DNA of 64,000 bases from Desulfitobacterium dehalogenans ATCC 51507. Its GTDB lineage: Bacteria > Bacillota > Desulfitobacteriia > Desulfitobacteriales > Desulfitobacteriaceae. The position numbers and the translations under genes are program-made. The stretch lies in the NCBI RefSeq assembly GCF_000243155.2, contig NC_018017.1, positions 620,001 to 684,000 on the forward strand. The letters run 5' to 3'. The stretch's first letter is position 1. The number at the start of each line of letters is the position of its first letter. The notes under the pieces were generated by a model that had not been told where the DNA came from, searched no databases, and worked only from the letters and a program-made list of their open reading frames with translations. Below, one piece after another: positions 55,510 to 60,339 of this stretch.

Positions 55510-55556
55510 TTCAATATGTTATCAGTTAAATGAGACATAAAGGGGGAAAATGTCCC

Positions 55557-56072
55557 GTGCTGAGAAAGAGCTTTGCCCAAGATTGTCTATATACTGCTGT
55601 AATGCGACTGATGAAAGAGAAAGATTTAGAGGACATCACTGTAAAAGAATTAGTGCTAAAAGCTGGAGTGTCCCGTTCAACCTTTTACCGGTATTATACA
55701 CAGCCTATGGATGTCCTTCGGGATTACCTCCAACCTTTTAATGATGACAATGCCCACTTGGATGACGAAGATGATAAAAAGGTTTATTTGCGTAGATTTT
55801 ATCAGTATTATACAAGCCATAGTGAGCTTATCTATGCTTTGATTCAGTCTAGTAAGACGGAGTTTCTCAGAGAAACCATATCCAGTCACATTCTCGAAGT
55901 CTTTACAGCCATGATGACGAATAAAGGAATATCTTCTTTCCTGCAAAAGGCTAGTGTGGGATTGTGTGTAGAAATATTGATCGTATGGATTATTAACGAT
56001 AGGGAAGAAAAGATCGAAGAAATGACCGACACTGTACATAACATGGTTTCTGTGATTGAAAGGGTATCCTAG
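55557..56072 (+). CDS. TetR-family transcriptional regulator
   Basis: A 171-residue TetR-type protein. The N-terminal HTH is SFAQDCLYTAVMRLMKEKDLEDITVKELVLKAGVSRSTFYRYY (split across about residues 4-46), close to DhaS/AcrR-like regulators. The C-terminal part is helical. I use GTG 55557 after AGGGGG; an ATG at 55530 lacks a site. Divergent position suggests it controls the flavoprotein at 53660. Confidence 0.8.
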   Translation: MLRKSFAQDCLYTAVMRLMKEKDLEDITVKELVLKAGVSRSTFYRYYTQPMDVLRDYLQPFNDDNAHLDDEDDKKVYLRRFYQYYTSHSELIYALIQSSKTEFLRETISSHILEVFTAMMTNKGISSFLQKASVGLCVEILIVWIINDREEKIEEMTDTVHNMVSVIERVS

Positions 56073-56120: not shown

Positions 56121-57977
56121 ATGAAAGAGTTCACGAATGCTAGCAGGATCTATTTGGGGTCACAAGGATTGAATCAGGAGTGGCTGGAGAAGGCTCAATA
56201 TGCCTTGAACTCAAGTAATTTAAAGAGTTGGACAGCAGGGATACGCTTTTCTCAAGTCCCGGACATGATCACCTCCTACCTTAAGTCCGCTCTCTTAAAT
56301 TCTTATTTGAACAGCATAACCCAACGCCTGGGAGAAATGGATAGGGATTTGCTCCATAAGGCCCATGTTATTTATTGTACTGATGATCGCGGGAATATTC
56401 GCGACCTGAGCCTCAGCCCGGATGTCAGTGAACGGGTGGATAATCATGTATGCAGATTTGTCATGGATCTTCTTGATCAAGGGAATGTGTGGGAAGATGC
56501 GGTGAGATGGTATTGGAATCACTCTGTAATCTGGACACTGGAGGCCATGTCTCAAGAATTTGAGTTGAGAACGCTGTCCTGTATGTCGGAGCGAACCTGG
56601 TCAAAGGTCTATTCCAAAACCCTTTGCTATGCAAATGCCGAGCGGTTTAACAGTCTCTTTAATATTTATGCCAAAAATTTTGTGGATATCTACATGCAAT
56701 CCCTGCAAAAAGAGTATCTCGAGCCTTCCCGGTATAGTTTGGTTTTTTATGAAGAATTTTTAGGGTTAAATGCACCGGTTATGGGGGTGCAGAGTATCCT
56801 CCGACCGAGAATGATACAAGAAAAAGCCTCGTATCTTACCACGTTTAGTATGGCCATGTACCATCAACTGCGCAAAGTGGTAGCAGCACAGGAATTTGCC
56901 ATACAAGACAATAGGATCTGGTTTAGTGCAAATCTGGAAACTCCCAGCGGCAGCTCCAGCGGGAGGGTGATTCTCAAAAGGGAGAATGATTCACTCATTA
57001 AACCTTGTCAAGACTTGATAAAAGGAATGAATGACGAGACAGCTGATGTCATGGATTCAATCTGCCACCTCTGGCTCAAGAAATCCACATCCCTTCAAGA
57101 AAAAATCGTGATTCATGCAGATGATATTCTCGATCTCCGAGGGTTGCGCAGGCAGAAAAATGGTCATGGACAAAGAGGAGGATATAAAGCTAAGTGGCGG
57201 GAACGTATTGCCGCCCACATGGATTTATTAGATCAACTCTGGATTAATCCCACTGGGATCAGCTCCTTTACCTTAGAAGAAAAAGCCTTTATTATTTCTA
57301 AAAGCAAGGATTTACAGGACACAGGAAGCAAAGGGGATTTTAAATGGGAGGTGCGGCCAGGTAATCCTTTAGTTCGCGATTTGCGGAAAGGGAAGAGGCA
57401 AACCTCCATCCTTTCCAAAAGAGTTTTTGAACTGGACCCTTACCGCCAGGCTTACGAGAAACGGGCAGCCCGCTATTTCTCCTGGTTATGGAGAAGCCGG
57501 CAATCCCGGGGACATTATTTGGAACCGATTCGCATCCCTACCTTGCTTAATGCCATACGTCTGGAATATCAAAGGTCACGCTCAGCCAAAATAATCGAGC
57601 GATTTGAAAAGATGATGGATACTCTCAAAGATAAGGAGATTATCGCCGGTTGGCAATATGATCGGATCTATAAGAATGGGCAGGACTGGCTGGAGTTAAA
57701 ATTGGTGGTGGAACCTCCTCAGACTATAATCGATCAATACGCTAAGATTAAATCAGCGACAAAACCCACTAAACCGCCTAAATTAGCAGGATCCTTAAAT
57801 AACCTTGGTGAGCAATTAAGGAAGGAACGCCTAAGAAGAAGGCTGACCCAGATGCAGGCAGCGGAAGCCATTGGTATCGATCAAACCACGGTCTCGAAGC
57901 TGGAGTTGGGTCGAAGAAATCCTGACTTCCAAACAGCTCGAAAAATTCAGCAATGGTTCGCGACGGCATCTTTTTGA
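56121..57977 (+). CDS. Large HTH protein of unknown function (possible initiator-like regulator)
   Basis: A 618-residue soluble protein. Residues 1-330 match nothing I recognise. Residues about 430-530 look like a winged-helix segment (FELDPYRQAYEKRAARYFSWLW…FEKMMDTLKDKEIIAGWQY), reminiscent of plasmid Rep-like initiators. Residues about 565-615 form a clear XRE-type HTH (LRKERLRRRLTQMQAAEAIG…TTVSKLELGRRNPDF). ATG 56121 follows GGAGGAAG. Five nt after its stop begin three direct repeats of 22-bp period. It may be a regulator of the cytochrome/flavoprotein operon or a replication-type protein; the first fits its position better. Confidence 0.55.
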   Translation: MKEFTNASRIYLGSQGLNQEWLEKAQYALNSSNLKSWTAGIRFSQVPDMITSYLKSALLNSYLNSITQRLGEMDRDLLHKAHVIYCTDDRGNIRDLSLSPDVSERVDNHVCRFVMDLLDQGNVWEDAVRWYWNHSVIWTLEAMSQEFELRTLSCMSERTWSKVYSKTLCYANAERFNSLFNIYAKNFVDIYMQSLQKEYLEPSRYSLVFYEEFLGLNAPVMGVQSILRPRMIQEKASYLTTFSMAMYHQLRKVVAAQEFAIQDNRIWFSANLETPSGSSSGRVILKRENDSLIKPCQDLIKGMNDETADVMDSICHLWLKKSTSLQEKIVIHADDILDLRGLRRQKNGHGQRGGYKAKWRERIAAHMDLLDQLWINPTGISSFTLEEKAFIISKSKDLQDTGSKGDFKWEVRPGNPLVRDLRKGKRQTSILSKRVFELDPYRQAYEKRAARYFSWLWRSRQSRGHYLEPIRIPTLLNAIRLEYQRSRSAKIIERFEKMMDTLKDKEIIAGWQYDRIYKNGQDWLELKLVVEPPQTIIDQYAKIKSATKPTKPPKLAGSLNNLGEQLRKERLRRRLTQMQAAEAIGIDQTTVSKLELGRRNPDFQTARKIQQWFATASF

Positions 57978-57981
57978 GCAA

Positions 57982-58047
57982 ACTCTACCTTATGTTAATT
58001 TTTACTCTACCCTATCCTTATCAAGACTCTACCCTATCCATACTCAG
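57982..58047 (+). repeat. Three direct repeats with 22-bp period (iteron-like)
   Basis: ACTCTACC occurs at 57982, 58004 and 58026, each start exactly 22 bp apart. Copies two and three share ACTCTACCCTATCC. The period of two helical turns puts all copies on one DNA face, as in Rep iterons or multi-site activator arrays. They lie between the HTH gene and the cytochrome/flavoprotein operon. Confidence 0.75.
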
Positions 58048-58106
58048 AATACCTTCGATTCCTCACATATCAAAGGCTATGCTCCCTTAAACATAATAAG
58101 GAGAAT

Positions 58107-58146
58107 GATATGAAGCCTGTCTGCGCATCTGCGGACAGGCTTCATA
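58107..58146. other. Long hairpin upstream of the cytochrome gene
   Basis: ATATGAAGCCTGTC pairs with GACAGGCTTCATAT around CTGCGCATCTGCG-type loop sequence. No T run follows. TATAAT (58147-58152) directly adjoins it, and CACTTT…AAAGTG (58186-58204) lies further down. It could be a terminator for the HTH gene or an operator of the next operon. Confidence 0.5.
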
Positions 58147-58227
58147 TATAATGGTCATGGTCATAGAACAAAGGAGGAATGGGGCCACTTTTGATGTGAA
58201 AGTGCACTCAAGGAGGAGGTGAGAAGA

Positions 58228-58608
58228 TTGGAAAAAGGTATGAAGTGGGCTAAACGGGTATTTTTGCTGCTTGCATTTGCTGTTGTCGTGATAGTGAGCA
58301 CAACGACAGAAACCAATGCCTTTGTCTCCATGAGTGAGGATCAGGTTACCTGCACGCCCTGCCATGAAGACGGACGTAAAGGAGATGGTAAAGGCGGTGA
58401 GATCCATCCCGATGGCACAAGTGATAATGAGGGAATAGAGGGAGAAGGTAAAACAGAAGAAAATCCTATTCTTACTCAATATCAGAGTACACTGACGGGT
58501 AATCTGACCATCGCTCCGGCAGCAGCTTGGGATGATCTTTGGACTTGGGTTCAAGCTCAACCCCTGGTAAAAATTGAAAGCAAATATGATGAGGCATTTC
58601 AAAAATAA
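58228..58608 (+). CDS. Exported monoheme c-type cytochrome
   Basis: A 126-residue protein: a signal/anchor helix (about 8-28), one heme site CTPCH, then an acidic, Gly-rich segment and a C-terminal helix. It should sit outside the membrane and pass electrons from the quinone pool to the flavoprotein encoded 30 nt downstream, as separate subunits of a flavocytochrome c-type reductase. I use TTG 58228, 9-10 nt from AAGGAGG; GTG 58219 is too close. No named family recognised beyond the heme motif. Confidence 0.68.
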   Translation: MEKGMKWAKRVFLLLAFAVVVIVSTTTETNAFVSMSEDQVTCTPCHEDGRKGDGKGGEIHPDGTSDNEGIEGEGKTEENPILTQYQSTLTGNLTIAPAAAWDDLWTWVQAQPLVKIESKYDEAFQK

Positions 58609-58638
58609 TCGCAATAGTAATGAGGGAGTGACTCTTTG

Positions 58639-60339
58639 ATGAGCGATAGTTTAAATGTAAGCCGTCGTAAATTTATGATCGGCGGGTTAGCTACTGCAGT
58701 GGCAGCAGGAGCAGGCCTTTTGACAGGGTGCAGTACTCAGTCCGCAGCACCCCAAGCACCGGCCGCTACGGAAAACTGGGATGCTGAAGCGGATGTTGTC
58801 GTAATAGGATTTGGTTGTGCCGGCGGTGGAGCTGCCGTTTCCGCAGCAGAGGCCGGAGCCTCGGTATTGGTTTTGGAATCTTTGCCTATTCCAGGAGGAA
58901 CGACCCGGGTATCTGGCGGAGCCTTATGGGTGCCTGCCAATCCTATGCAGAAAAAAGAGGGAATCCCGGATTCCATCGAGGAAGGCCGCCAGTATATTAT
59001 GAAAGGCAATGATGGTCAGGTTGATGAAGAACTCATCGATGCTTACCTCGAAAATGGCCCCCAAATCGTTGAGTTTCTTATGAACAAATTGCAAATCGAA
59101 TTCAAGTTCGGCTATCCAGATTATCATCCGGAATGGCCGGGAGGAAAGAGACTGGGTCGCAGTATCAGTCCGTCCTACGATGGCAAAGGGTCCGGAGAAG
59201 CTTTAATGGCTGCCCTTTACGATTACTCTCTTGCTAAAGGGGTAAAATTTGCCCTAAATACTCATGCCAAAAAGCTCATTAAGGATGATTCCGGCAAAAT
59301 CATCGGCGTTACTGCTTACCAAGATGGCAAAGAAATTCGTGTCAAAGCCAACAAAGGGGTCGTTCTGGCTACAGGCGGTTTTGAATGGGATAAAGATCTG
59401 CTCAAAACCTACCAAAGAGGCCCGGTGGATGCATCCGTGGTCTTTAATCCCGGCAGTGGCGGAGGGGTCTATGGCTGCGGCGACGGCTTAAGAATGGCTA
59501 TGGAGGCCGGTGCCGATCTGCGCAATATGAACGAATCCTGGGGGTTAATGGTTTATTTGCTCCCCGGCTGGGAAGACGAAGTGGCTAACTATCGTCAAAA
59601 CGCCAAAGATTACAAAAAAAGCACCTGGAAAACGATTATTGGCGATTGGTTCCTCTGGAGAGGAAAGCCCGGCACGATCGTTGTTAATAAAGAGGGCAAG
59701 CGTTTTATGAACGAAGCCTGTGATTATGATACTTCCGCTTATCCTTTCTATGAGAGAGACACTTTTGGGGAGAATCGTTGGCGCAATTTACCGGCCTTTG
59801 TCATCGCCGACTCAGTTCAATGGAGCAAGTACGGTATCGCCGGTGCTAAAGGGGATAATGTTCCTGATTATATCACCAAGGGAGATACTTTGGCGGAACT
59901 GGCTCAAAAACTAGGCATCGATGCCAAAGGTTTAGAAGCTACTGTAGCTGAATTTAATAAATATGCTTCCCAGACTCCTCCCACAGATCCCCATTTCCAC
60001 CGCGGAGAAAGTTATTTCGATCGGTTTGCCTCCGGTGACTATGCTATGGCACAGGCAGATCCTGAGAACCCTGCCTGCACCTTGGCTCCCCTGGCCAAAG
60101 GTCCCTACTATGGCATTCAGATTCACTCGGGCAATTGCGGAACCTGTGGCGGAGCACGGATTAATGCTAAAGCACAAGTTATCGATGTCCATGGCAATGT
60201 TATCCCCGGTCTCTATGCCGCCGGCAATGCTGCAGGATTAGGCGGCCCTGGAATTACCTATCATGGCCCTGGCAACCCTGTAGCCGGCGGAGTTATCTTC
60301 GGATACCTGGCCGGACTGGATGCAGCGACAAAAGCCTAA
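58639..60339 (+). CDS. Tat-exported fumarate reductase-like flavoprotein
   Basis: A 566-residue flavoprotein. The Tat signal SRRKFMIGG (8-16) is followed by lipobox LLTGC. The FAD fold VVIGFGCAGGGAAVSAAEAG, a catalytic domain and the end GLYAAGNAAGLGGPGITYHGPGNPVAGG are present. It is paired with the cytochrome gene upstream. The catalytic domain resembles 3-ketosteroid dehydrogenase/fumarate reductase FAD-binding-2 proteins, so the substrate could be an unsaturated or aromatic acid. ATG 58639 is chosen over the abutting TTG. Confidence 0.83.
   Translation: MSDSLNVSRRKFMIGGLATAVAAGAGLLTGCSTQSAAPQAPAATENWDAEADVVVIGFGCAGGGAAVSAAEAGASVLVLESLPIPGGTTRVSGGALWVPANPMQKKEGIPDSIEEGRQYIMKGNDGQVDEELIDAYLENGPQIVEFLMNKLQIEFKFGYPDYHPEWPGGKRLGRSISPSYDGKGSGEALMAALYDYSLAKGVKFALNTHAKKLIKDDSGKIIGVTAYQDGKEIRVKANKGVVLATGGFEWDKDLLKTYQRGPVDASVVFNPGSGGGVYGCGDGLRMAMEAGADLRNMNESWGLMVYLLPGWEDEVANYRQNAKDYKKSTWKTIIGDWFLWRGKPGTIVVNKEGKRFMNEACDYDTSAYPFYERDTFGENRWRNLPAFVIADSVQWSKYGIAGAKGDNVPDYITKGDTLAELAQKLGIDAKGLEATVAEFNKYASQTPPTDPHFHRGESYFDRFASGDYAMAQADPENPACTLAPLAKGPYYGIQIHSGNCGTCGGARINAKAQVIDVHGNVIPGLYAAGNAAGLGGPGITYHGPGNPVAGGVIFGYLAGLDAATKA

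Follow-up and report, generated by a model that had tools for sequence, protein, structure and literature searches.

The locus raises the question of why a gene and a repeat array laid out like a plasmid replication origin stand directly before a respiratory operon in the chromosome of Desulfitobacterium dehalogenans. The window, meaning the whole 64-kb stretch of DNA analysed here, contains a rep-like gene, a cytochrome gene and a flavoprotein gene with the elements between them (Table 1). An earlier note, made from the sequence, had described a 618-residue protein with an XRE HTH followed by three repeats at exact 22-bp steps. Both descriptions hold: the ORF at 56121-57977 has 618 codons and encodes a C-terminal XRE HTH (Pfam HTH_3, E 7e-10, residues 566-609), and the window contains exactly three copies of ACTCTACC, which start at 57982, 58004 and 58026 with spacings of 22 and 22. 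The first iteron begins 4 bases past the rep-like stop codon, and the unit common to all three is 12 nt, ACTCTACC(C/T)TAT.

Table 1. Features of the rep-like gene, the iteron array and the adjoining operon (window coordinates; G002 and G003, other genomes of the genus; G056, Peptococcaceae MAG).
Feature	Position	Strand	Remarks
TetR-family regulator gene	55530..56072	+	Pfam TetR_N; neighbour, outside the conserved core
rep-like gene	56121..57977	+	ORF, 618 codons/618 aa; C-terminal XRE HTH at residues about 562-612
Protein body, residues about 295-530	57003..57710	+	Best conserved against plasmid homologues (alignments); candidate winged-helix region
Iteron 1, ACTCTACCTTAT	57982..57993	+	Conserved in G002, G003, G056
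Iteron 2, ACTCTACCCTAT	58004..58015	+	22 bp from iteron 1; conserved in G002, G003, G056
Iteron 3, ACTCTACCCTAT	58026..58037	+	22 bp from iteron 2; conserved in G002, G003, G056
AT-rich element TTAAACATAATAA	58087..58099	+	One mismatch to TTAA-N5-TTAA; candidate remnant of a DNA unwinding element
Inverted repeat (hairpin), 17-bp arms, 6-nt loop	58108..58147	.	RNA fold z -4.4
TATAAT, possible -10 element	58147..58152	+	Conserved in three genus members (alignment)
TGTGAAAGTG, leader motif shortly before the RBS	58195..58204	+	GAAAGTG kept in 4/4 loci, flanks differ
Small exported protein, one CxxCH haem motif	58228..58608	+	TTG start 58228 proposed from RBS 58212-58219
Tat-type FAD_binding_2 flavoprotein	58636..60339	+	Pfam FAD_binding_2 E 2e-65

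The array is singular within its genome. Equal-spaced triples of an identical 8-mer (15-45 bp) occur once in the window, this same triple is the single one in the surrounding 400 kb of chromosome, and none arises in 60 second-order Markov simulations of the window. The paired iteron pattern likewise has its sole site in the whole genome (4,321,753 bp) at this locus. Tandem Repeats Finder, run at a low threshold, leaves the array unreported because only about 12 of the 22 bases repeat.

The protein itself offers little to name it by. Outside the HTH it has no family match in Pfam, NCBIfam or PHROG, a PDB sequence search recognises the HTH alone, and no homologue was found among phages and viral contigs. 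When 9-11 family members are scanned against Pfam, NCBIfam and PHROGs, the consistent matches are of HTH type and initiator family models (e.g. Rep_3, RepA_N, RPA, TrfA) are absent among the families listed. As no known initiator model matches the protein body in any member, the initiator role of the rep-like family rests on context. AlphaFold models, built for two sequences only, are poor (mean pLDDT 49 and 42). For the model with pLDDT 49 the best Foldseek match is the Rep WH1 structure 6h24, at a sub-threshold E of 0.45, and VIA-align places RctB at the top (Z 7.4, rmsd 3.7, 111 residues) and RepE54 at about 5. The initiator-like winged helix previously read in this protein is recognised by none of the sequence models, although the best matches of a low-confidence model, below threshold as they are, are initiator winged-helix proteins, which hints at a fold shared with Rep proteins.

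Context is provided by relatives on replicons. Distant relatives were recovered by tblastn from a Klebsiella record, a Paludibaculum plasmid and several large plasmids of Bacillaceae. When one of these relatives served as the next query, 28 plasmid records were returned with a single copy on each, and a whole-genome search adds further sporadic carriers of the family. Most of the 28 plasmid records hold repeat arrays or replication/partition genes beside the rep relative, and genes for primase C-terminal proteins, ParM/StbA or ParA are found near the Bacillaceae and other plasmid relatives. Of 13 Bacillaceae-type loci, 11 have a cluster of repeated 11-mers no more than 1.8 kb upstream of the gene; no such cluster appears in either of two 50-kb control stretches taken from two plasmids.

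The closest counterparts in gene order are three replicon relatives. One genome (G232) encodes a 717-aa homologue that matches over its full length (27% over 591 aa, E 9e-59); downstream of it come 3.1 perfect copies of a 22-bp repeat and then genes for a DnaB-type helicase and a CHC2/Toprim primase. Another (G239) has a 425-aa homologue, then three 21-bp repeats and DnaB, and the 55-kb Paludibaculum plasmid pPfer1 carries rep, wecB, 2.7 copies of a 22-bp repeat, DnaB, toprim and ParA. Ten hypothetical proteins of the Paludibaculum plasmid, considered as other known Rep genes, have no Pfam match. Iterons lie downstream of the family gene in these three and in G203, and a direct-repeat array of about 17-22 bp adjoins the gene at the present locus, in its orthologues and beside the replicon relatives. 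In the nearest replicon relatives rep comes first, then about three iterons of 21-22 bp, then an AT-rich TTAA element and finally dnaB. The chromosomal loci keep this order, with the respiratory operon where dnaB stands.

The link to Rep proteins that the earlier note drew from the iterons stands in one part, the family being found otherwise in plasmid or plasmid-like replication modules, but not in the other, as a named initiator family model is lacking. A large XRE-type regulator of the ordinary kind, whose repeats are operators and which has no ancestry in replication, would agree with the curated models, which recognise the HTH only. It sits poorly with a full-length homologue beside DnaB and primase, with single-copy occurrence on 28/28 plasmid records and with iteron-like arrays at most family members, and we regard it as highly unlikely. 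The element is built like plasmid replication modules and probably descends from them. As the initiator-family sequence models are unmatched, this claim concerns a build like that of plasmid modules and not membership of Rep_3, RepA_N or TrfA.

Two other genomes of the genus have a rep orthologue (90% and 65% identity), as does a Peptococcaceae MAG (45%; L033/L036). Each has the stop codon followed by three repeats at 21-22-bp spacing, a one-haem CxxCH protein and a Tat flavoprotein. The MAG repeats are degenerate (TCTACCCTAT, TCTACCTAAT and TCTAGCTTAT), and with a matrix derived from the nine genus repeats the MAG array scores 37.2; the rest of the contig reaches 6.8 at most, and 100 simulations reach 16.3 at most. 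The search for homologous gene-repeat pairs suggested at the outset thus finds the pair in all three orthologues, and the outcome that was to speak against the proposal, a gene kept with its periodic repeats lost, did not occur in these relatives. Across the order (74 genomes), the four genomes with rep are also the four with the orthologous cytochrome, the two genes always being adjacent, and the exact iteron pair is present at the three genus rep loci only. No triples at 20-23 bp are present where these genomes carry paralogues of the cytochrome. A binding-site-like array and its adjacency before the operon are conserved at 4/4 orthologous loci. Because three of the four genomes share a genus, the unit counts as two independent lineages, the genus and one 9.3-kb MAG contig. 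In a tree of the family the four chromosomal proteins group together (support 100/99) and the G232 and Paludibaculum proteins are nearest by path length; the order of the deep branches is without support in the same tree.

The surroundings of the locus differ between the genus and the MAG, so the conserved unit consists of the gene, the repeats, the cytochrome and the flavoprotein. Such differing surroundings, together with the plasmid location of family members, are also what would be expected of an integrated-plasmid relic that brought the respiratory operon as cargo and whose gene and repeats persist by linkage with no present role. Yet purifying selection acts on the gene (dN/dS 0.12 in comparison with the nearest species), its reading frame is intact at 45% identity, and iteron sequence and phase are kept while the spacers have diverged. 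The TetR gene upstream, absent from that position in the MAG contig, has decayed to a 70-codon remnant in G003 (L035 7578-7790), where rep remains intact. A relic is, on these grounds, quite unlikely.

The region between iterons and operon also resembles an origin. Exact TTAA-N5-TTAA is present at the equivalent place in the chromosomal loci of G002 and G056 and in the replicons G232 and G239, at +45, +46, +47 and +62/+71 past the iteron end respectively, and one-mismatch forms lie at +45 in the window and +48 in G003. In the MAG contig and in the G232 contig this is the single occurrence of the motif. The chance of at least four exact copies in eight loci is about 3e-7, a figure that serves as a guide only because the motif was picked after the sequences had been inspected. 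No DnaA box lies beside the iterons in the eight loci.

These elements could belong to a still competent, dormant or conditional origin at which the protein opens the AT-rich element and loads the host helicase, for local operon amplification or rescue replication. Its best argument is the retention of the AT-rich element, within a rep/three iterons/TTAA order that is kept in two lineages and that precedes dnaB in G232, G239 and Paludibaculum. The GC skew, however, stays positive through each of the twenty 20-kb bins between 480 and 880 kb of the chromosome, with no inflection at the locus, and such an unbroken 400 kb speaks against a routinely used bidirectional origin. The ORF lists contain no helicase, primase or partition gene adjoining the locus, no DnaA box falls within 600 bp, and in both the window and G003 the AT-rich element departs from the motif by one mismatch. 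We therefore consider a competent origin unlikely.

Downstream of the AT-rich element, the hairpin is kept with paired changes in G002 and G003 and is absent in G056. A GC-rich hairpin clearly exceeds shuffles in the window, G002, G003 and G239 only, and was for that reason dropped as an origin-wide feature. An intrinsic terminator at the hairpin was also rejected, the scan being negative and the T run missing. No riboswitch or other RNA family was found in the leader. For the operon no good -35 was found, and a consensus promoter scan also left the TATAAT unreported.

Our results are best explained by the capture of a plasmid-type initiator and its origin in the chromosome, where they would now serve as a local control element of the cytochrome/flavoprotein operon, a reading to which we assign a probability of about 0.56. 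We infer the initiator role of the replicon relatives, the binding of the iterons and the transcriptional effect, with its sign and its signal. The earlier note had offered a choice between a recruited initiator and an origin fixed in the chromosome. Each half receives part of its due: the layout is that of a plasmid-type origin fixed in a chromosome, and its unvarying position ahead of a single operon suggests that it was recruited as a regulator. The captured components would be the initiator gene, the three 22-bp iterons and the AT-rich TTAA element. The three sites lie about two helical turns apart on the same face of the DNA, which suits cooperative binding, and the protein is expected to bind the in-phase iterons in this manner. 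Once bound it would bend or open the DNA beside the operon promoter and so turn the operon on or off, and a TATAAT with no -35 box would fit an activated promoter. The initiator may also limit its own expression; cases are known of initiators acting on the promoter of their own gene. Among the replicon relatives this element stands before a dnaB-primase operon, for which respiratory genes substitute here. A bolder form of the proposal, which we advance tentatively, is that a complete origin of initiator, iterons and unwinding element is maintained by selection as a regulatory switch, one in which the initiator melts or loops DNA to activate the respiratory promoter or else brings about local amplification of the operon, with the protein in a new, uncatalogued initiator family. 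The AT-rich element has been retained although a plain repressor would not need it, and this fits an origin as well.

In known iteron plasmids the iterons cause incompatibility. The iterons and protein might accordingly act against incoming related plasmids by titration or handcuffing, with the operon a bystander. There is a precedent in SGI1, whose replication when integrated is reported to promote incompatibility and loss of its helper plasmid (PMC7433901). SGI1 is likewise a replicon seated in the chromosome, but it is mobile and depends on a helper plasmid for its replication as an island, whereas the ORF lists show no integrase or transfer gene next to the present locus. Defence of this kind does not account for why, in two lineages, the pair always adjoins the same operon, and no plasmid with these iterons was found, matches outside the genus being confined to one genome, with no listed family match, and four viral contigs. 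We hold it to be the least probable of the explanations considered.

Capture as an operon control element has partial parallels in known systems. In iteron plasmids whose initiators are winged-helix proteins (RepE of F, pi of R6K, RepA of pPS10 and TrfA of RK2), a Rep gene likewise lies by a short array of 17-22 bp direct repeats, and an AT-rich element, for which the present locus has a candidate, stands beside the array; 22-bp iterons are described for R6K and pPS10 (PMC4980987). The present locus differs in being chromosomal, in having three iterons only and in having respiratory genes instead of replication or partition genes. Its protein differs from those initiators in an extra C-terminal XRE HTH, a long N-terminal part and the absence of an initiator model match. 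Domesticated initiators of secondary chromosomes are a second parallel, for example RctB with its iterons on Vibrio chromosome 2, a plasmid-derived chromid (PMC6090056). RctB, also the top structural alignment of the weak model, runs a replicon, whereas the present locus bears no sign of a second one. The 'HTH domain-containing' proteins of large Bacillaceae plasmids and of Paludibaculum pPfer1 are homologues with the same terminal HTH, but they are plasmid-borne, and the Bacillaceae repeats lie upstream, between the gene and a divergent primase-like gene. Within the part of the literature that was covered, no initiator-iteron pair or whole origin element fixed before a metabolic operon was found. 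If the proposal is true, it shows how replication machinery can turn into gene regulation, and it provides a testable case of whether origin melting can drive transcription.

For many large Bacillaceae plasmids, membership of this family also points to the probable initiator, a protein now annotated as no more than HTH or hypothetical. Several of the family-bearing plasmids among the 28 records (e.g. L041, L043 and L070-L075) have no replicon type in PLSDB, and the rep relatives look like an uncatalogued initiator family of such plasmids. In L041 and L043 about 15 copies of a 39-bp repeat lie upstream of the rep relative. L043 (CP079755.1, Klebsiella grimontii pNY3A) is a 361-kb record whose member is about 62% identical to the Bacillaceae plasmid proteins, and its Klebsiella label possibly reflects mislabelling or a mixed assembly. 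The four viral contigs (L109-L112) contain an exact iteron-core pair at similar spacing, which could be due to chance or to plasmid-like elements. A further locus (L060, G203:C155:1-5259) has, on the reverse strand, a 449-aa family member at 1464-2813 and 3.8 copies of a 22-bp repeat (ACACCTATCCAGTGAGTAAACC) at 2874-2957, with a Xaa-Pro-peptidase-like gene after the repeats and a PfkB-like kinase upstream, and is possibly a second, independent chromosomal capture.
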